The notes under the pieces: generated by a model
Seen by the model: only the letters and a program-made list of their open reading frames with translations
Database searches by the model: none
Told to the model about the DNA's origin: nothing
In this document: one piece after another, positions 2 to 44,559 of the stretch
How the letters are laid out: every line of letters begins with the position of its first letter
Numbering within the stretch: the first letter of the stretch is position 1
Position numbers and translations under genes: made by a program
From: an uncultured Clostridia bacterium
GTDB taxonomy: Bacteria > Bacillota > Clostridia > Oscillospirales > Acutalibacteraceae
Reading direction: 5' to 3'
Assembly: GCA_944384985.1 (NCBI GenBank)
Contig: CALWVM010000001.1
Location: forward strand, 124,001 to 188,000
DNA length: 64,000 nt

Positions 2-775
2 ACCCTGCCGCTTTCGGAGATCGAACCGAACCGGGCACAGCCGCGCAAGACCTTTGACGAGGCGGCGCTCGCGGAACTGGCGGAAAGCATCGCCGAACAC
101 GGCGTTTTGCAGCCGCTGCTTGTGCGGCCGCAAGCCGTCGGCGGTTATCGTCTGGTCGCGGGCGAACGGCGGTACCGCGCCGCGCGCATGGCGGGCTTAA
201 AAGAAGTCCCCGTGACTGTGCGCGAAATGACCGACGAGGAAGAGAGTGTTTTTGCGCTCATTGAGAATTTGCAGCGCGAGGACCTGAACCCGCTGGAAGA
301 AGCCGAGGGTTTGCAGCAGCTCATCACGCGGTTCGGCTTGACGCAGGAGCAGGCGGCTGCGCGCGTGGGCAAAAGCCGCACCGCTGTCACAAACGCCCTG
401 CGGCTGTTGCAGCTGCCCGAAGAGACGGCGGCCCTCGTGCGCGACGGCAAGCTTTCAATGGGCCATGCGCGCGCGCTGCTTTCCGTGGAGGATCCGGCGG
501 CGATCAACGCGCTTGCGCAGCAGATCGTACAAAACGGCGTTTCGGTGCGCGAGACGGAACGGCTCGTGAAATCGGCGGGGCGCGAGAAAAAACCGACCGA
601 GCGCCGTGCAAAGCGCCGCGACCGGTTTTATGACGAAGTGGAGCTGGCATTGAGCGAAACGCTCGGCCGCTCGGTGAAGGTCTATGTGGGCAAAGGCGGC
701 CGCGGGACGCTGGAAATCGAATTTTTCGGCACGGACGACCTTAAAAAGCTTGCGGCGGCGTTCGACGAAGACTGA
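2..775 (+). CDS. parB: ParB/Spo0J chromosome-partitioning protein (5' end outside window)
   Basis: ParB binds parS sites near oriC, loads SMC and works with the Soj/ParA ATPase in origin segregation. The reading frame is open from base 2, so the true start lies upstream. Visible are the CTP-binding boxes of the ParB N-terminal domain (GERRYRAARMAG, then ENLQREDLNPLEEAEG), the helix-turn-helix KRSRTAV-like segment (GLTQEQAAARVGKSRTAV) and a short C-terminal dimerisation region ending LKKLAAAFDED. A parB gene followed by serS is a common origin-proximal arrangement in Firmicutes, which supports placing this edge near oriC. No parS-like 16-mer was seen in the window. Noc is a close paralog and cannot be fully excluded without the N-terminus. 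Confidence 0.93.
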   Translation, partial: TLPLSEIEPNRAQPRKTFDEAALAELAESIAEHGVLQPLLVRPQAVGGYRLVAGERRYRAARMAGLKEVPVTVREMTDEEESVFALIENLQREDLNPLEEAEGLQQLITRFGLTQEQAAARVGKSRTAVTNALRLLQLPEETAALVRDGKLSMGHARALLSVEDPAAINALAQQIVQNGVSVRETERLVKSAGREKKPTERRAKRRDRFYDEVELALSETLGRSVKVYVGKGGRGTLEIEFFGTDDLKKLAAAFDED

Positions 776-811
776 TACAGGGAATACCCTATAATCAACC
801 TGTCAACAAAG

Positions 812-1148
812 TCTTTTCTCTCCCCCAGTCTCGCTAACGCTCGCCAGCCGCTGACAGCGGCCGTCCCCTTTGTCGCTACGCGACATTTCCCCACACTGTG
901 GGGAATCACCCTCCTCAGAGGGGGCAACGCTTAACCGAAAGTTTGCAGAAACCCTTTCCTCCCTCTGACGAGGGAGGTGGCACGCGCTTTGCGCGTGACG
1001 GAGGGAGAGAACCCTTGAAAAAGCAAGGGTTCTGACTACCCCCAAGGCTTACTTCGCTCGCCAGCCGCTGACGGCGGCCGTCCCCTTTGTCGCTTCGCGA
1101 CATTTCTCCGCCCCGCGGGGAATCACCCCTGACAAGGGGAGCAAAAGG
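812..1148. repeat. Three palindromic intergenic repeat modules between parB and serS
   Basis: This gap of about 420 bases holds three copies of the hairpin-rich family found throughout the window. Copy 1 (812-926) is a long form: TTTTCTCTCCCCC, then hairpins around GTCGCTACGCGAC and CCCCACACTGTGGGG, ending CTCAGAGGGGGCAA. Copy 2 (953-1012) is a short form with a variable stem, CACGCGC pairing with GCGCGTG (981-997), between CCCTCTGACGAGGGAGG and GACGGAGGGAGAGA. Copy 3 (1038-1148) is a diverged long form. The linker between copies 1 and 2 (about 930-955, CCGAAAGTTTGCAGAAACCC) recurs in reverse complement near 20500-20530. No gene is seen in this gap. Confidence 0.8.
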
Positions 1149-1171
1149 CACTTTATTTAACACGCTTACCT

Positions 1172-1177
1172 TATAAT
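1172..1177 (+). promoter_or_regulatory. Possible -10 element of serS
   Basis: TATAAT lies 18 bases before the serS start codon, with a strong ribosome site (CGGAGG) in between. No good -35 hexamer sits 16-18 bases upstream, so this is a weak call. If real, the transcript would have almost no leader. Confidence 0.3.
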
Positions 1178-1194
1178 AATATCGGAGGCAAACT

Positions 1195-2478
1195 ATGCTG
1201 GACATCAAATTTGTTCGGGAGAACCCGGAGCTTGTCAAGGAAAACATCCGAAAGAAATTCCAGGATGAAAAACTGCCGCTTGTGGATGAAGCGATCGACC
1301 TCGACCGCCGCTACCGCGAATGCAAGGGCCGCGCGGACGGGCTGCGCGCCGATCGCAACCGCATCAGCAAGCAGATCGGCGCGCTGATGGCAAAAGGGCA
1401 GCGCGAGGAAGCGGAAGCGACCAAGAAAAAAGTTACCGAAATGGCGGATGAATTGAAGTCGCTCGAAGAGCAGGAGACCGAGCTTTCCGCACAGCTTCGC
1501 GAACGGATGCTTGTGATCCCGAACATCATCGGCCCGGATGTGCCCATCGGTAAAGACGACAGCGAGAACGTCGAGCGCGAGCGCTTCGGCGAGCCGGTCG
1601 TGCCGGATTTCGAGATCCCCTACCATGTGGACATCATGGAGAGCTTTGACGGCATCGACCTCGATTCCGCGCGCAAGACGAGCGGCAACGGCTTCTATTA
1701 CCTCAAAGGCGACATCGCGCGGCTGCATTCCGCCATCCTCTCCTATGCGCGCGATTTCATGATCGACCGCGGCTTCACCTATTACGTCCCGCCGTTCATG
1801 ATCCGCGGGAACGTCGTGACGGGCGTTATGAGCTTTGCCGAAATGGAAAACATGATGTATAAGATCGAGGGCGAGGATCTGTATTTGATCGGCACGAGCG
1901 AGCACTCGATGATCGGCAAATTCATCGACACGATCCTCCCGGAAAGCGACCTGCCGCAGACGCTCACGAGCTATTCGCCCTGCTTCCGCAAGGAGGTCGG
2001 CGCGCACGGCATCGAGGAGCGCGGCGTGTACCGCATCCACCAGTTCGAGAAGCAGGAGATGGTCGTGGTCTGCAAGCCCGAAGAGAGCGACAAGTGGTAC
2101 GACGTGCTGTGGCACAACACGGTCGATTTCTTCCGCTCACTGGATATCCCCGTGCGCACGCTGGAATGCTGCTCGGGCGACCTTGCCGACCTGAAGGTCA
2201 AGAGTCTGGACGTTGAGGCGTGGAGCCCGCGCCAGAAAAAATATTTCGAGGTCGGTTCGTGCTCAAACCTCGGCGACGCGCAGGCGCGCCGCCTCGGGAT
2301 CCGCATCAAGGGCGAAAAGGGGAATTATTTCCCGCACACGCTCAACAATACCGTCGTCGCCCCGCCGCGCATGCTCATCGCTTTTCTCGAGAACAACCTG
2401 TGCGCCGACGGCACGGTGAACATCCCCGCGCCTTTGCGCATGTATATGGGCGGCAAGGAAAAGCTGACAAAGAAATAA
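1195..2478 (+). CDS. serS: Seryl-tRNA synthetase
   Basis: Cytoplasmic class II synthetase that charges tRNA-Ser (and tRNA-Sec if present). At 427 residues it is the usual bacterial length. The N-terminal part (about residues 1-110) is the long antiparallel coiled coil that grips the tRNA variable arm. The catalytic domain shows GTSEHSMIGKF, motif 2 around CFRKEVGAHGIEERGVYRIHQF and motif 3 near NTVVAPPRMLIAFLENN. The start is supported by CGGAGG seven bases upstream. It follows parB across a repeat-filled gap and ends in a strong terminator. No T-box leader is visible, because the upstream DNA is made of repeats. Confidence 0.98.
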   Translation: MLDIKFVRENPELVKENIRKKFQDEKLPLVDEAIDLDRRYRECKGRADGLRADRNRISKQIGALMAKGQREEAEATKKKVTEMADELKSLEEQETELSAQLRERMLVIPNIIGPDVPIGKDDSENVERERFGEPVVPDFEIPYHVDIMESFDGIDLDSARKTSGNGFYYLKGDIARLHSAILSYARDFMIDRGFTYYVPPFMIRGNVVTGVMSFAEMENMMYKIEGEDLYLIGTSEHSMIGKFIDTILPESDLPQTLTSYSPCFRKEVGAHGIEERGVYRIHQFEKQEMVVVCKPEESDKWYDVLWHNTVDFFRSLDIPVRTLECCSGDLADLKVKSLDVEAWSPRQKKYFEVGSCSNLGDAQARRLGIRIKGEKGNYFPHTLNNTVVAPPRMLIAFLENNLCADGTVNIPAPLRMYMGGKEKLTKK

Positions 2479-4222: not shown

Positions 4223-5476
4223 ATGTACGCAGATTTGATGGATACCATCGGGTTTGTCGAAGCCCATGATAAAGAAGTCGGCGAAGCCATGCGGGCGGAA
4301 CTCAACCGCCAGCGGCGCAATCTGGAGCTGATCGCCAGCGAAAACATCGTTTCCCCCGCCGTTATGGCGGCGATGGGCAGCGTGCTGACCAACAAATACG
4401 CCGAAGGCTATTCCGGCAAGCGCTATTACGGCGGCTGTGAATGCGTGGACGTGGTCGAGGACATCGCCATCGCGCGCGCAAAGGAACTGTTCGGCGCCGG
4501 CTTTGCCAATGTCCAGCCCCACTCCGGCGCGCAGGCGAATATGGCGGTCTATTTTGCCCTTTTGACGCCTGGCGACACGGTCATGGGCATGAACCTTGCC
4601 GAGGGCGGCCATTTGACGCACGGCTCGCCCGTGAATATGTCCGGCAAATACTTCCATTTTGTCCCCTACGGCGTCAATGCCGAGGGCTACATCGACTATG
4701 ACGAATTCGAGAAAACGGCGCGGGAATGCAAGCCGAAACTGATCGTCGCGGGTGCGTCGGCGTATCCGCGCATCATCGACTTCAAACGGATTTCCGAGAT
4801 TGCAAAGGAAGTCGGCGCATATCTTATGGTAGATATGGCGCACATCGCGGGGCTTGTCGCCGCAGGGCTGCACCCCTCGCCCATGCCCTATGCCGACGTG
4901 GTGACCACCACCACGCACAAGACCCTGCGCGGTCCGCGCGGGGGGCTCATCCTCACGAACGACGAGGAGCTTGCCAAAAAGATCAACAAAGCCATCTTCC
5001 CCGGCACGCAGGGCGGCCCGCTCATGCACATCATCGCGGGCAAGGCGGTCTGCTTCGGCGAAGCGCTGAAGCCCGAATTTAAAGATTATCAGCAGCGCGT
5101 GGTCGACAACTGCCGTGCGCTCGCCAAAGGGCTTCTTTCGCGCGGCATCCAGCTTGTCTCCGGCGGCAGTGACAACCACCTGCTGCTTGTGGACCTGCGC
5201 TCGACCGGCGTAACGGGCAAGGAGCTCGAACACCGGCTTGACGAAGTGTATATCACCGTCAATAAAAACGCCATCCCCAACGACCCCGAAAAGCCCTTTG
5301 TCACAAGCGGCGTAAGACTTGGCACGCCCGCTGTTACAACGCGTGGGCTTGGCACAGAGGATATGGATAAGGTCGCCGAATACATCGCGCTTGCCGCGAC
5401 CGATTTCGAAGCGAATGCAGAGCGTATCCGCGAGGGCGTGACCGCGATCTGCAAAAAATATCCGCTGTACGAATAA
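4223..5476 (+). CDS. glyA: Serine hydroxymethyltransferase
   Basis: PLP enzyme that interconverts serine and glycine while making 5,10-methylene-tetrahydrofolate. At 417 residues it is typical in length. The PLP lysine is Lys233 in [16 protein letters not shown], and the N-terminal [21 protein letters not shown] and [16 protein letters not shown] signatures are intact. The start at 4223 has AAGGAG about 12 bases upstream. An in-frame ATG at 4238 is an alternative, but the family usually has this N-terminal helix. It lies downstream of guaB, a sensible pairing because purine synthesis consumes one-carbon folate. Confidence 0.97.
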
Positions 5477-12176: not shown

Positions 12177-12749
12177 ATGGAATACACCTGGGAGACCTTA
12201 AAAACCGAGTGCCTGGCCTGCCGCAACTGTGCGCTGTGCGAAACGCGGCACAACGTTGTGTTCGGCGTGGGAAACACGCAGGCGAAGGTGATGTTCGTCG
12301 GGGAGGGACCGGGCGAAAATGAAGACCTCCAGGGCGAACCGTTCGTCGGCCGCGGCGGGCAGCTTCTCGACAAATACCTGACGCACATCGACCTTTCACG
12401 CGATAAAAACATCTATATTGCGAACATCGTCAAGTGCCGCCCGCCGAAAAACCGCGACCCGCGCGAAGAGGAACAGGCGGCGTGTACGCCGTGGCTGCGC
12501 GAGCAGGTGCGGCTTTTGCACCCGAAGATCCTCGTGTGTTTAGGGCGCATCGCGGCGCAGTATATCATCCGTCCGGATTTCCGCGTGACCAAAGAGCACG
12601 GTGTGTTTTATGAAAGAAACGGTATGCTGCTCATGGGCACGTATCACCCCGCCTCGCTTCTGCGCAACCCCGCGCAAAAGCCGGATGCGCTCTCCGATTT
12701 CTGCGCCCTGCGGGAGAAGATCAAAGAGCTGGGGATGGAGAGCGAGTAA
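12177..12749 (+). CDS. Family 4 uracil-DNA glycosylase (iron-sulfur type)
   Basis: Removes uracil from DNA. The 190 residues have the family 4 signatures: an N-terminal cysteine cluster (Cys12, 15, 18, 21 in ECLACRNCALC) and Cys87 and Cys103, which together ligate a 4Fe-4S cluster; the GEGPGENEDLQGEPFVGRGG water-activating loop; and the TYHPASLLRNP uracil-binding loop near the end. The start has AAGGTG eight bases upstream. It lies between two repeat-filled gaps and is probably a single-gene unit. Its exact substrate range (uracil alone or also other deaminated bases) cannot be told from sequence. Confidence 0.94.
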   Translation: MEYTWETLKTECLACRNCALCETRHNVVFGVGNTQAKVMFVGEGPGENEDLQGEPFVGRGGQLLDKYLTHIDLSRDKNIYIANIVKCRPPKNRDPREEEQAACTPWLREQVRLLHPKILVCLGRIAAQYIIRPDFRVTKEHGVFYERNGMLLMGTYHPASLLRNPAQKPDALSDFCALREKIKELGMESE

Positions 12750-12769
12750 GAAAACGCTGTAATTTCGAG

Positions 12770-13203
12770 CTTCCGTTCCTCCCGTCTTTCCGAGGGTGAT
12801 TCCCTGCGGTGCGGGGAAATGTCGCGCAGCGAAGCGACAAAGGGGATGGCGCCGTTGACGACGAAGAGATATATAAAGCCGAAAACCTGCTTTTTTCTCT
12901 CCCCCAGTCTGCTATCGCAGACAGCCCCCTCGTCAGAGGGGGCAAGGAGAAAAGTCGAAAGATAGCACAAATCCTTTCCTCTCTCTGATGAGGGAGGAGT
13001 CAAACGGCGTTTCGCCGTTTGACGGAGGGAGAGAAAAACTTTACGCATGGAACCAATCTTTTCCCGCCTGCAAACAGCAACTGTTTTCTCTCCCCCGACC
13101 GCCCTGTGGCGGCCGCCCCCCTCGGATGATCGGGGCAAGGCACAACAGAGGCTCGCATAAGCTTCCCCGCACCACGTCCGGCATCCAACATCCAACTTTT
13201 AAC
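12770..13203. repeat. Cluster of hairpin repeat modules and heptads before the glycosidase gene
   Basis: This gap of about 470 bases contains at least four module copies. 12770-12850 carries CCTGCGGTGCGGGG and TGTCGC hairpins. 12893-12945 has the variable stem GTCTGC/GCAGAC (12907-12922). 12975-13036 has the variable stem TCAAACGGCG/CGCCGTTTGA (13000-13022). 13083-13140 has the stem CCGCC/GGCGG (13099-13112). Heptads at 13176-13203 (GTCCGGC, two of ATCCAAC, TTTTAAC) end right before CAGGA of the next gene. No gene is seen. Confidence 0.8.
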
Positions 13204-13222
13204 ACAGGAATGATTTTTGCCT

Positions 13223-15091
13223 ATGAACTGGACCCCTTTTAACTCCGCCGATGCGTTTTATAAAAGCGTGCCGGGCGCCGTCGAAACAGATCTTCCGTTT
13301 CGGCTGCGCCTGATTTTGCCGCGCGCTTTCGGCGCGAGCGGGGCGCACCTGCTGCTGCAAAAAGACGGCGAAACGGCGGTCGACCACCCGATGTACTGGG
13401 CGGGCATGTACGGCGACGAGCAGGAGATCTGGGACATCGAGCTTTCCGTCCCGGAAAAGGGGCTGTATTTTTATCACTTTGATTACGACTCCTCCTGGGG
13501 GCGCGGGTCGGTCTTTCACAGCGGCGACGGCGTAGGCGCGCTTTCGGGCGCCGGCGTGCAGCAGAGCTGGCAGCTGACCGTCTATGACAAAAATTTCCGC
13601 ACGCCCGACTGGCTCAAAGGCGGCATCATCTATCAGATCTTCCCCGACCGGTTTTACAATTCGGGGAAGCCGAAACAAAATGTGCCCGGCGACCGCATTT
13701 TGCGCACGGACATCGAAAACCCGCCGTACTGGAAGCCCGACGAGACGGGCGAGGTGCGCAACAACGATTATTTCGGCGGCGACCTTGCGGGCATCTGCGA
13801 AAAGCTGCCGTATCTCGAAAGCCTCGGGGTGACATGTCTGTATCTGAACCCCATTTTCGAGGCGCATTCCAACCACCGTTACAATACGGCGGACTATGAA
13901 AAAATCGATCCCCTTTTGGGGACCGAAGCGGATCTCAGAACGCTCTGCGCCGAAGCGGCAAAGCACGGCATCCGGGTCCTCCTTGACGGCGTGTTTTCGC
14001 ATACGGGCTCCGACAGCCGCTATTTCAACCGCGAGGGCCGCTACAAGACGATCGGCGCCTACAATTCGAAAGCGTCCCCCTATTATCCGTGGTACACGTT
14101 CACCGAATATCCCGACCGGTACAAAAGCTGGTGGGGCTTTGAAACGCTCCCCGAGGTCAACGAGGAAAGCCCCGCGTACCTCGACTTCATCACGGGGCAG
14201 GACGGCATCGTGCGCCGCTGGCTGCGCGCGGGCGCCGCGGGATGGCGGCTCGACGTCGCCGACGAACTGCCCGACACGTTTCTGGACGCGCTCGTAAAAG
14301 CGGCGAAAGCGGAAAAACCGGACGCGCTCGTGCTCGGCGAGGTCTGGGAGGACGCCACGACCAAATGGGCATACGGCGTGCGGCGGCGGTACCTGCTCGG
14401 CGGGCAGCTTGACAGCGTGATGAACTACCCCTTTGCCGAAGCGGTGCTCGAATTTGCGCGCGGCGGCGTTGCCGAGGATTTTCAGCGCGCCGTTACGCCG
14501 ATTTTGGAGCACTACCCCAAGCCCGTGCTCGACGTGCTGATGAATCATATCGGCACGCACGATACCGAACGTGCGATCACGCGCCTTGCCGGCGAGAGCG
14601 CCAAATTCCATGACCGCGCCTGGCAGGCTGAGCGGAGGCTTTCCGACGCAGATTACAAAAAAGGCGTGCAGCTGCTCCGGCTTGCGGCGGTGCTGCAATA
14701 CACGCTGCCCGGCGTGCCGTCCGTCTACTACGGCGACGAGGCGGGGATGCAGGGCTATAAGGACCCGTTCAACCGCGGATACTACCCGTGGGGCCGCGAA
14801 AACGAAACGCTTCTGGCGTTTTACAAGAAGCTGGGCGCGCTGCGGCACGCGCTTCCCGTCCTGCGCGACGGCGAGATGCGCTTTGTCTCCGCCGTGCTCG
14901 GGTGCGTCGCGTATACGCGGGAAAACGAGACGGGCGCGATCCTCGTCATCGCCAACCGCAACGAACACGATATTGTTTATAACCTCCATGAAAAATGGCA
15001 TTTTGCGCGCGAACGGCTCTACGGCAGCCCCGTGACCTCGTGCGTGCGCGTCGGCGCAATGGATTGTGCGGTGTTAGATGCTGGAAATTAG
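13223..15091 (+). CDS. GH13 alpha-glycosidase (neopullulanase/cyclomaltodextrinase type)
   Basis: Hydrolyses alpha-1,4-glucosidic bonds in maltodextrin-like substrates. About 622 residues, with an N-terminal beta domain (1-130), then the barrel from GGIIYQIFPDRFYN onward. The catalytic residues are Asp344 (GWRLDVADEL), Glu373 (LGEVWED) and Asp447 (GTHDTER). LLDGVFSHTGSDSRYFN is conserved region I. There is no signal peptide, so it acts in the cytoplasm on imported oligosaccharides. The start could be the ATG at 13223 or the TTG at 13217, which is better spaced from CAGGA. The last codons and the TAG stop are formed by repeat heptads (AATTAGA at 15086-15092), so the C-terminus may be altered. 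No transporter lies beside it. Confidence 0.93.
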   Translation: MNWTPFNSADAFYKSVPGAVETDLPFRLRLILPRAFGASGAHLLLQKDGETAVDHPMYWAGMYGDEQEIWDIELSVPEKGLYFYHFDYDSSWGRGSVFHSGDGVGALSGAGVQQSWQLTVYDKNFRTPDWLKGGIIYQIFPDRFYNSGKPKQNVPGDRILRTDIENPPYWKPDETGEVRNNDYFGGDLAGICEKLPYLESLGVTCLYLNPIFEAHSNHRYNTADYEKIDPLLGTEADLRTLCAEAAKHGIRVLLDGVFSHTGSDSRYFNREGRYKTIGAYNSKASPYYPWYTFTEYPDRYKSWWGFETLPEVNEESPAYLDFITGQDGIVRRWLRAGAAGWRLDVADELPDTFLDALVKAAKAEKPDALVLGEVWEDATTKWAYGVRRRYLLGGQLDSVMNYPFAEAVLEFARGGVAEDFQRAVTPILEHYPKPVLDVLMNHIGTHDTERAITRLAGESAKFHDRAWQAERRLSDADYKKGVQLLRLAAVLQYTLPGVPSVYYGDEAGMQGYKDPFNRGYYPWGRENETLLAFYKKLGALRHALPVLRDGEMRFVSAVLGCVAYTRENETGAILVIANRNEHDIVYNLHEKWHFARERLYGSPVTSCVRVGAMDCAVLDAGN

Positions 15092-15263
15092 ATTCTGGAC
15101 GCTGGACGTTGCGCGGTGAGGGTGAGTTTTCGCTTGGGTTTTACCGCCTGCAAGCGAAAGTTTTTCTCTCCCCCAGCCGCCTTGCGGCGGCAGCCCCCTC
15201 GTCAGAGGGGGTAATATCTAATCGAAAGGCTTATATGCCGTTCCTCCCTCTGAGGAGGGAGGT
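15072..15263. repeat. Heptads and hairpin modules running into the DUF554 remnant
   Basis: Five complement-sense heptads (15072-15106: TGTTAGA, TGCTGGA, AATTAGA, TTCTGGA, CGCTGGA) overlap the end of the glycosidase gene. A short hairpin module (15161-15212) with stem GCCGC/GCGGC follows, then a second module that stops abruptly after CTGAGGAGGGAGGTGG at about 15263. The rest of that second module (stem and GACGGAGGGAGAGA) is missing and protein-coding DUF554 sequence begins instead. Confidence 0.75.
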
Positions 15264-20280: not shown

Positions 20281-20681
20281 GCTGTAGGGGCGGGCGATTT
20301 CCCCACAGCGTGGGGAATCACCCTCGAAAGACGGGAGGAAATGGTTCTGCAAATTTTCGGCTGTCTTTTTGCCCCCTCTGACGAGGGGGCTGGCGAGCGG
20401 AGCGAGACTGGGGGAGAGATAAAGCTGCATTCTCCTTTTGTCTCTCCCTCCGTCTTTTGCCTGCGGCAAAATCCACCTCCCTCCTCAGAGGGAGGAAAGG
20501 TTTTCAGCAAACTTTCGGTCAAGCGTTTCCCCCTTTGACGGGCGTCGTCAGTGGAAGGCGAGCGGAGCGAGACTGGGGGAGAGAAAAACCGATAAATCGC
20601 AGTCGGTAAAAGCCCAAGCGGGACCCCGCCCCGCCTTACTTCTGCCCGCTGTCCTCTGATCTCTGCGTTTGTCCGTCTGCG
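20281..20681. repeat. Repeat modules and heptads between mreB and mreC
   Basis: A partial GTAGGGGCGGG module (20284) runs directly into TTTCCCCACAGCGTGGGG. Further modules lie at 20369-20420 (with GGCGAGCGGAGCGAGAC), 20440-20505 (variable stem TTTTGCC/GGCAAAA at 20455-20471) and 20528-20590. Direct-sense heptads (20640-20681: TTCTGCC, CGCTGTC, CTCTGAT, CTCTGCG, TTTGTCC, GTCTGCG) end at TAAAGGAG, the mreC ribosome site. No promoter or gene is visible in this gap. Confidence 0.75.
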
Positions 20682-44141: not shown

Positions 44142-44559
44142 GTTTTAGATGGGGAATGGCAGCAGAGGAGGCGCAGTTATATATATTCCGCGTAGGCGCG
44201 TGTGCACAAATTTTTGGCTTTCCTTTGCCCCCCTAGAAAGACGGGAGGAAAGGGTTTGTACAAACATTAGGTTATGCGTTGCCCCCTCTGACGAGGGGCT
44301 GGCTTGGCGGCGGTCACGTCGCCAAGCCTGGGGGAGAGATAAGTCTGTACTTGGTTCTTTTTCGTCTCTCCCTCCGTCACGGCAACAAGTTGCCGTGACA
44401 CCGCCAACGGCGCCGTCCCCTTTGTCGCTGCGCGACATTTCCCCGCACTGCGGGGCACCACCCTCGTCAGAGGGAAGAAAAGCATGTGCAGATTTTTGGA
44501 ATTCATCTAATTTCCCCATCGCACATCCGGCGTCCAGCATCGAATCTCTGAAATCTAAT
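44142..44559. repeat. Repeat element between the terminator and the dehydrogenase stop
   Basis: A single complement-sense heptad (TTTTAGA, 44142-44148 approx.) follows the terminator. Modules include 44225-44255, 44280-44342 with the 9-base variable stem GGCTTGGCG/CGCCAAGCC (44301-44328), and 44365-44480 with the 11-base stem GTCACGGCAAC/GTTGCCGTGAC (44376-44399). Direct-sense heptads (44525-44559: ATCCGGC, GTCCAGC, ATCGAAT, CTCTGAA, ATCTAAT) provide the TAG stop of the leftward dehydrogenase gene. No gene is seen in this gap. Confidence 0.78.

Follow-up and report, generated by a model that had tools for sequence, protein, structure and literature searches.

The repeats described so far that lie closest to the family I will discuss are the CGTC-tagged REPs, in which a constant tag stands beside a hairpin of variable stem and for which the main text of the paper describing them finds no dedicated transposase (Di Nocera et al., 2013; PMC3733652). 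The same text gives them an unpaired CGTC, TGTC or CCTC at one end, a short CCA tail, a stem 8-9 bp long in which positions one and two are a complementary AT, a loop of 4-5 bases and a mostly inverted dimeric arrangement, and treats as an open question by what means such REP-like repeats spread when they have no RAYT (PMC3733652). Also of interest are the GTAG REPs and REPINs with their TnpA_REP/RAYT proteins, which show inverted hairpin pairs, mismatches in the stem and strand-specific recognition of folded single-stranded DNA (PMC8266576; see also PMC3116915); integron attC sites, whose variable region, in the account of PMC2727003, is recombined as a folded strand and recognized by structure; and the Neisseria dRS3 repeats, presented in PMC3898611 as a variable core of 8 bases enclosed by constant ends of 6 bp, ATTCCC(N8)GGGAAT, which form intergenic arrays and are the target of a phage integrase.

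Module architecture and likeness to described repeats

The stretch of DNA analyzed here (the window; 64 kb, positions 124001-188000 of contig C1 in the 2.1-Mb genome G000) carries modules of ~50-60 bp which, read in one orientation, have three parts: the inner tag CTCTCCCYC, which is constant, a hairpin that varies, and CCTCNTCAGAGG, which is the core of an outer hairpin that is again constant. There are two main types, the AG-type, CAGTC-stem-ACAGCYCCCTC (ends CAGTC..ACAGC), and the CG-type, CCGTC-stem-CCACCTCCCTC (ends CCGTC..CCACC). I count 11 modules in the window (Table 1), eight with paired stems and three (817, 20419 minus and 20584 minus) with an interrupted stem, and every stem quoted by the initial annotation is present within a few bases of where it was placed. 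The cluster at 12893-13140 has a gene of the uracil-DNA-glycosylase family on one side and one of the alpha-amylase family on the other, and the remaining modules are all intergenic, between ORFs taken as genes, a placing that is uncertain for the pair at 44285-44473, where the adjoining ORFs have no Pfam match.

Table 1. Modules of the window, with the stem positions given by the initial annotation
Positions	Strand	Type	Stem	Annotated stem position	Remarks
818-922	+	AG-type, long form	interrupted, GTCTCGCTAACGCTCGCC		extra hairpins
962-1009	-	CG-type	CACGCGC/GCGCGTG	~981	outer-facing pair with 818-922
12897-12939	+	AG-type	GTCTGC-TATC-GCAGAC	12907	
12980-13033 (low end approximate)	-	CG-type	TCAAACGGCG/CGCCGTTTGA	13000	outer-facing pair with 12897-12939
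13088-13135	+		CCGCC/GGCGG	13099	degenerate outer hairpin
15166-15208	+	AG-type	GCCGCC/GGCGGC		
20375-20418	-	AG-type	interrupted, GTCTCGCTCCGCTCGCC		
20442-20491	+	CG-type	TTTTGCC/GGCAAAA	~20455	inner-facing composite with 20375-20418
20533-20583 (low end approximate)	-		interrupted		degenerate outer hairpin
44285-44338	-	AG-type	GGCTTGGCG/CGCCAAGCC	~44301	
44366-44473	+	CG-type, long form	11-bp, GTCACGGCAAC/GTTGCCGTGAC	44376	extra hairpins; inner-facing composite with 44285-44338

In the long forms the extra hairpins lie between the stem and the outer hairpin, and there is a second constant-flank site (CCCTTTGTC..GACATTTCCCC) at which the stem is variable too. Contig C1, which makes up 13% of the genome, holds 13 of its 21 exact modules together with parB- and serS-like genes (window 107-2478), and the family may thus be concentrated near the replication origin of G000.

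Like the CGTC-tagged REPs, the modules combine a constant tag with a variable stem, many CG-type copies begin with CGTC and end with CCA, and inverted pairs are frequent, their two halves often being unlike; they differ in having few stems that begin with AT, loops of mostly 3 nt, AGTC in the AG-type half and a second constant hairpin, and in being found in Clostridia and Bifidobacterium (compare the main text of PMC3733652, where the terms 'Firmicutes', 'Clostrid' and 'Bifidobacter' occur 0 times). A CGTC, TGTC or CCTC start is found in 113 of 162 distinct C-initial inserts, with part of this tag paired, and CGTC-stem-NCCA in 87 of the 162, one extra base preceding the CCA; only 7 of these 87 have a stem core that starts with AT and ends with AT, and the loop has 3 bases in 158 of 264 distinct hairpins and 4-5 in 97. 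Because the stem rule and the loop length fail, I do not file the modules as CGTC-tagged REPs, although this is the described group that they most resemble; I call them REP-like because constant ends and a fold are kept while stems are interchangeable, as in REP-type repeats.

The other systems are further removed. With the GTAG REPs and REPINs the modules share inverted hairpin pairs and stem mismatches, and perhaps also the strand-specific reading of a folded strand, but there is no GTAG at the stem. The likeness to attC sites is structural only: the modules end in CTCTCCCYC and CAGAGG, which do not correspond to the consensus of attC core sites. The dRS3 repeats also have constant ends around a variable core in intergenic DNA, but those ends are different and no second hairpin is attached. 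No prior description of the family was found in the literature searched, which included few subscription papers, and a search with the module letters matched nothing on bacterial repeats by title or abstract.

Pairing and the strand that is probably read

The initial annotation suggested collecting all copies in the genome from their flanks and testing the stems for covariation. The pattern CTCTCCCYC-N(12-42)-CCTCNTCAGAGG, which carries no pairing requirement, has 21 matches in G000, compared to 0 for the reversed pattern used as control; among the matches listed for relatives there are 3 to 55 modules in one set of seven genomes and 4 to 38 in another of six, again with controls at 0. Read by eye, 16 of the 21 inserts in G000 form Watson-Crick stems, some of which contain a mismatch or two, and the other five are GTCTCGCT..GCTCG(A/C)C or near it, with no simple pairing, a form that can be written as the interrupted stem GTC-TC-GC..GC-TC-GAC or near it. 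The observation of the initial annotation is confirmed, all seven of its stems being present, and the interrupted stem shared by the five had been missed; neither a single ancestral stem nor a majority of stems lacking self-complementarity emerged from the genome-wide collection.

The fold was then assessed on 319 distinct inserts from 439 modules, located by regular expression with one mismatch allowed per flank in fetched loci from genomes of the genus, named Clostridia and Bifidobacterium records and viral contigs. Set against dinucleotide shuffles of the same insert, 53% of the 319 equal or surpass 99% of the shuffles in folding and 70% equal or surpass 95%, which leaves 30% short of that level; and for the 306 inserts with at least 4 pairs the mean arm energy is -6.37 kcal/mol with their own arms vs -2.37 when arms are swapped between modules (2000 swaps), in agreement with energies from a DNA parameter set. 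When stems were grouped by length (groups of 8 or more distinct stems; 51 of the 439 modules being unparsed), Watson-Crick pairing was 0.73-0.96 and in 11 of 11 groups higher than in any of 300 trials with re-dealt 3' halves; up to 4 pair types occur at a single stem position. Since arms fit their own partner better than another and pairing beats re-dealt halves in all 11 groups, selection for the fold, one of the two processes that the initial annotation had invoked, is supported, and the loops and mismatches are strongly strand-specific as well.

On balance I believe it probable that the modules are a REP-like family that is read as one folded strand, recognized by its fold, built into composites with AG- and CG-type ends, and subject to exchange of stems between copies. 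They would be short mobile repeats, and the strand that is read would be the one with 5'-CCTCTGANGAGG-stem-GRGGGAGAG-3' (the R strand, its opposite being F), most likely as single-stranded DNA during replication or strand transfer. What is recognized would be the fold itself, that is, a paired stem, a G..A loop and tolerated G·A mismatches, and not the sequence of the stem; the inverted AG- and CG-type halves in the Clostridia studied can be taken as two unlike ends of one composite; and stem classes would spread within a genome by exchange, through ectopic recombination or conversion via the constant ends, combined with amplification of modules.

Loops that start with G and end with A, taking the central 3 or 4 bases as the loop, are seen in 157 of 277 distinct stems when the R strand is read and in 9 when the F strand is; a separate hairpin finder gives 125 vs 10 of 264, and the Bifidobacterium loci alone 27 of 31 vs 0. 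The mismatches of the R strand (n=333) comprise 249 A·G, 40 G·T and 18 A·C, all these loop and mismatch counts being drawn from homologous stems that share ancestry, so that they are not independent events and have no simple p-value. GNA triloops are closed by a C-G pair in 81 of 97 cases, and GNA hairpins closed by C-G are very stable in DNA. The interrupted stem would be explained as a tandem G·A stem, a reading that I keep conditional because in the energy test, with DNA or RNA parameters and on either strand, this class folds no better than its shuffles, even though its R strand is the better folder of the two (R vs F: -1.6 vs -0.8 and -0.2 vs 0 for DNA; -5.1 vs -1.1 and -2.6 vs -0.9 for RNA), and its lack of predicted stability counts against the favored explanation.

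The covariation would also be expected of a transcribed RNA element whose hairpins are selected as RNA, for a part in the 3' processing or stability of mRNA or in protein binding, and whose stems change by ordinary compensatory mutation. G·A pairs and GNRA loops are stable in RNA too, G·T mismatches outnumber A·C on the R strand, and the interrupted class folds better by RNA than by DNA parameters, all of which would suit this possibility. However, 110 of the 143 modules in four species (G000, G019, G040 and G053) sit in close inverted pairs, so that any transcript would contain one module in the wrong strand; UNCG loops are nearly absent (0 on R and 1 on F of 264), the third base of the G..A tetraloops has no clear purine bias (20 purines vs 17 pyrimidines, 37 of 40 tallied), and the stems of G040 and G053 form discrete classes and not a continuum. 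Few UNCG loops and the lack of a third-base bias make me lean towards DNA, and the RNA element strikes me as unlikely. Nor was a terminator-like site or promoter found in window 12700-13300 or any Rfam match above the gathering threshold in the window, and the readings as a Rho-independent terminator, promoter or known RNA family were rejected. A hammerhead ribozyme was considered as well, given that the R strand of the outer hairpin contains CUGANGA, which I take to be the hammerhead core, and was dropped when the other hammerhead parts were not seen by eye.

Stem classes, composites and orthologous sites

In the fetched stretches of G040 and G053, two related species, classes defined by the leading motif of the stem number four for AG modules and five for CG modules, so that nine discrete classes recur at many loci, with a within-class stem identity of 0.93-0.99 per column (long forms left out). 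The AG flanks fall to an identity of 0.3-0.65 from about 10 columns outward, and the CG outer flanks to 0.48, after which identity recovers in another conserved block at columns 16-25 (0.86-0.78) before dropping once more. For AG modules the chance of sharing a class does not rise with flank identity, at 0.20 of 65 pairs at ~0.8 and 0.18 of 22 at ~0.9 (18 of 88 pairs at ~0.8 or more), where class frequencies predict 0.24; for CG modules sharing does rise among the most similar flanks (0.34 of 67 pairs and 0.47 of 19, with 0.21 expected), a point against exchange. The looser classes of G019 and G000, with a same-class median identity of 0.69-0.92 in most bins, also count against the favored explanation, as does the fact that leading motifs were used to define the classes.

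Close inverted pairs in G000, G019, G040 and G053 number 59, of which 50 are AG-CG, 8 untyped-CG and 1 CG-CG, and typing by the base after CTCTCCC makes 58 of the 59 unlike; spacers in these species measure 20-38 (or 49-65) bases in inner-facing and 39-46 (once 66) in outer-facing pairs. Loci from named Clostridia have 90 of 175 modules in pairs, the 45 pairs being 37 AG-CG, 3 AG-AG, 1 CG-CG and 4 untyped, whereas in the Bifidobacterium loci only 20 of 54 modules are paired and the 10 pairs comprise 3 AG-CG, 4 AG-AG and 3 with an ACCC-type module. An obligate AG/CG heterodimer was consequently dropped, and the failure of the AG/CG rule in Bifidobacterium is a further point against the explanation I favor. 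Among the matches listed for G054 and G060, both Bifidobacterium, a third module type with CACCCG..CGGGAG in place of AGTC..GACAG tends to occur in outer-facing pairs.

Within composites the AG and CG stems assort freely: no excess mutual information is seen among the typed composites of G040 (21 composites, 11 combinations, p 0.81), G053 (13, 12 combinations, p 1.0) or G019 and G000 together (12, 9 combinations, p 0.36), untyped composites being left out. The 13 composites of G053 have a common spacer of 25-26 bases (mean identity 0.86), and yet they hold 4 AG and 5 CG stem classes.

Five orthologous sites were met along the way, which is no census, and three of the five have clearly changed. 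At the first (G000 C1:104190, G018 C22 and G019 C14), where inner and outer flanks of G018 and G000 are identical in 57/60 and 73/80 positions, the CG stem is GTCAAAACGGCATATTTGCCGTTTTGAC in G018, GGCAAAACGGTGTACACACCGTTTTGAC in G000 and GGTAAAACGGCATGTTTGCCGTTTTACC in G019, and in G019 the AG stem is different and the adjoining sequence rearranged too. At the second (G040 C5 and G053 C8) the outer flanks are identical in 167/183 and 199/238 ungapped columns (0.77 and 0.76 of all columns) and the 18-base outer hairpin ends are identical on both sides, with both stems and the spacer different between them. At the third (window 20442-20491 and G019 C19) the outer flank matches in 52/58 positions and the stem differs; the inner flank has changed together with it, so exchange there is not confined to the stem, which also counts against the proposal. 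The fourth (G000 C9:63260 and G019 C18:24659) keeps its stem class, with differences near the loop, and the fifth (G000 C1:113434 and G019 C14:34020) keeps its AG stem except for one base.

Could all of this arise with no exchange, if each stem class were its own amplifying subfamily and differing stems at one site reflected loss and re-insertion at a favored position? The homogeneity of the classes and the CG association at high flank identity would agree with such a history, as would the strongly different copy numbers between species and the element present in G019 and absent from G018 and G000 (both described below), but it would leave the different stems inside one short-spacer composite family, the differing stems between base-identical 18-nt outer hairpin ends at the second site and the free assortment of stems in composites to be accounted for, and I regard it as improbable. 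The initial annotation had also offered a copying process in which one arm is the template for the other, for instance replication template switching at the hairpin, to which the change of both arms in place at the G000/G018/G019 locus and the classes with loops in both orientations (the ACGCGC class, for one, has both AAA and TTT) might be attributed, but this is not needed for the large swaps, because a limited set of discrete classes already elsewhere in the same genome is used at many loci, both stems differ at an orthologous composite, and chimeric arms with halves from different classes number 0 of 83 short-form modules in G040 and G053 (long forms left out), making it very unlikely as the general route, although conceivable for the small paired changes, such as those in place at the three-species locus, which could be due to compensatory mutation or template switching.

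Hosts, mobility and the search for an enzyme

Copy numbers differ greatly between close species: the identity of G018 to G019 is 93.8% at one locus, and they have 3 vs 43 modules among the matches listed. A single clean insertion was seen, an element of very roughly 250 bases at G019 C14:21880-22120 (L124 ~4380-4620) that is absent from G018 and G000; it is flanked by near-repeats of ~20 bp which are themselves stem-like, and this one candidate for a target duplication, a feature that together with terminal inverted repeats would mark a MITE of an IS family, is not convincing. Among the matches listed for contigs C12, C41, C83 and C88 of G053, module-bearing DNA reaches or nears the contig ends, so assemblies may break there and copy numbers are probably lower bounds. 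Contig C83 matches, letter for letter, a record named uncultured Eubacteriales bacterium T12_L3_320320_idba_bin.72, which identifies G053, a member of the same genus as G000.

Seven Bifidobacterium genomes of named strains contain from at least 17 to at least 54 exact pattern copies each. G016 and the genome with the B. callitrichidarum locus share a 44-base core without a single difference; Clostridia and Bifidobacterium belong to two phyla, and because of this shared core the family spans both.

A mobilizing enzyme would be expected, and that the search, which covered the Y1_Tnp family, found none tied to the modules counts against the favored explanation; the CGTC-tagged REPs have no known transposase either. 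At an E-value of 0.001 the Y1_Tnp domain (PF01797) has no match in G000, G040, G053 or G018 and was not detected in 6 of the 7 module-bearing Bifidobacterium genomes, so that a co-resident Y1/RAYT mobilizer is rejected for these. Matches are present in 23 of 39 genomes of the genus, including the module-rich G016, G043, G012, G003, G047 and G019, and because several module-rich relatives have them, a RAYT that works in trans, or that has since disappeared, may have been involved. In GTAG REP/RAYT systems the genome would contain a RAYT gene flanked by the repeats, and G000 has no such match. RAYT-like proteins do occur in the genus, and modules lie within 1 kb of none of the 20 fetched Y1/RAYT-like loci (20 of 44 match rows); at one Y1 locus (G045) they are ~1.25 kb off.

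A bolder proposal, which I offer as tentative and rather doubtful, is that the modules are mobile DNA that crosses phyla, recognized by the shape of one folded strand with its G..A loop and G·A-tolerant stem, moved by an enzyme other than Y1/RAYT, and carrying the stem as a cassette exchanged between copies. The search for such an enzyme is now practical because there are seven named Bifidobacterium strains with at least 17-54 copies, six of them without a detected Y1. The strand-specific loop signature provides a direct handle on whether single-stranded DNA or RNA is read, and the freely assorting stems are a natural series of hairpins for defining the features that a structure-reading enzyme would need.

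Other repeats accompany the modules: GTAG-type (GTAGGGGCGGG..CCCGCCCCTAC) and TCTGACNTCTGA-like repeats were noticed in the same regions of L131, L148, L162 and other intergenic stretches, and some RAYT-like proteins have insertions of the VGAGLRACP type, which may have arisen by read-through of such repeats. Modules are also found in 19 stretches of viral contigs (L286-L304), which may be phage or host pieces, and a more distant relative (L061, from G049) has the variant CCTCAGTCGGCTACGCCGACAGCTCCCTCAAAGAGGGAGC with the same two-hairpin plan.
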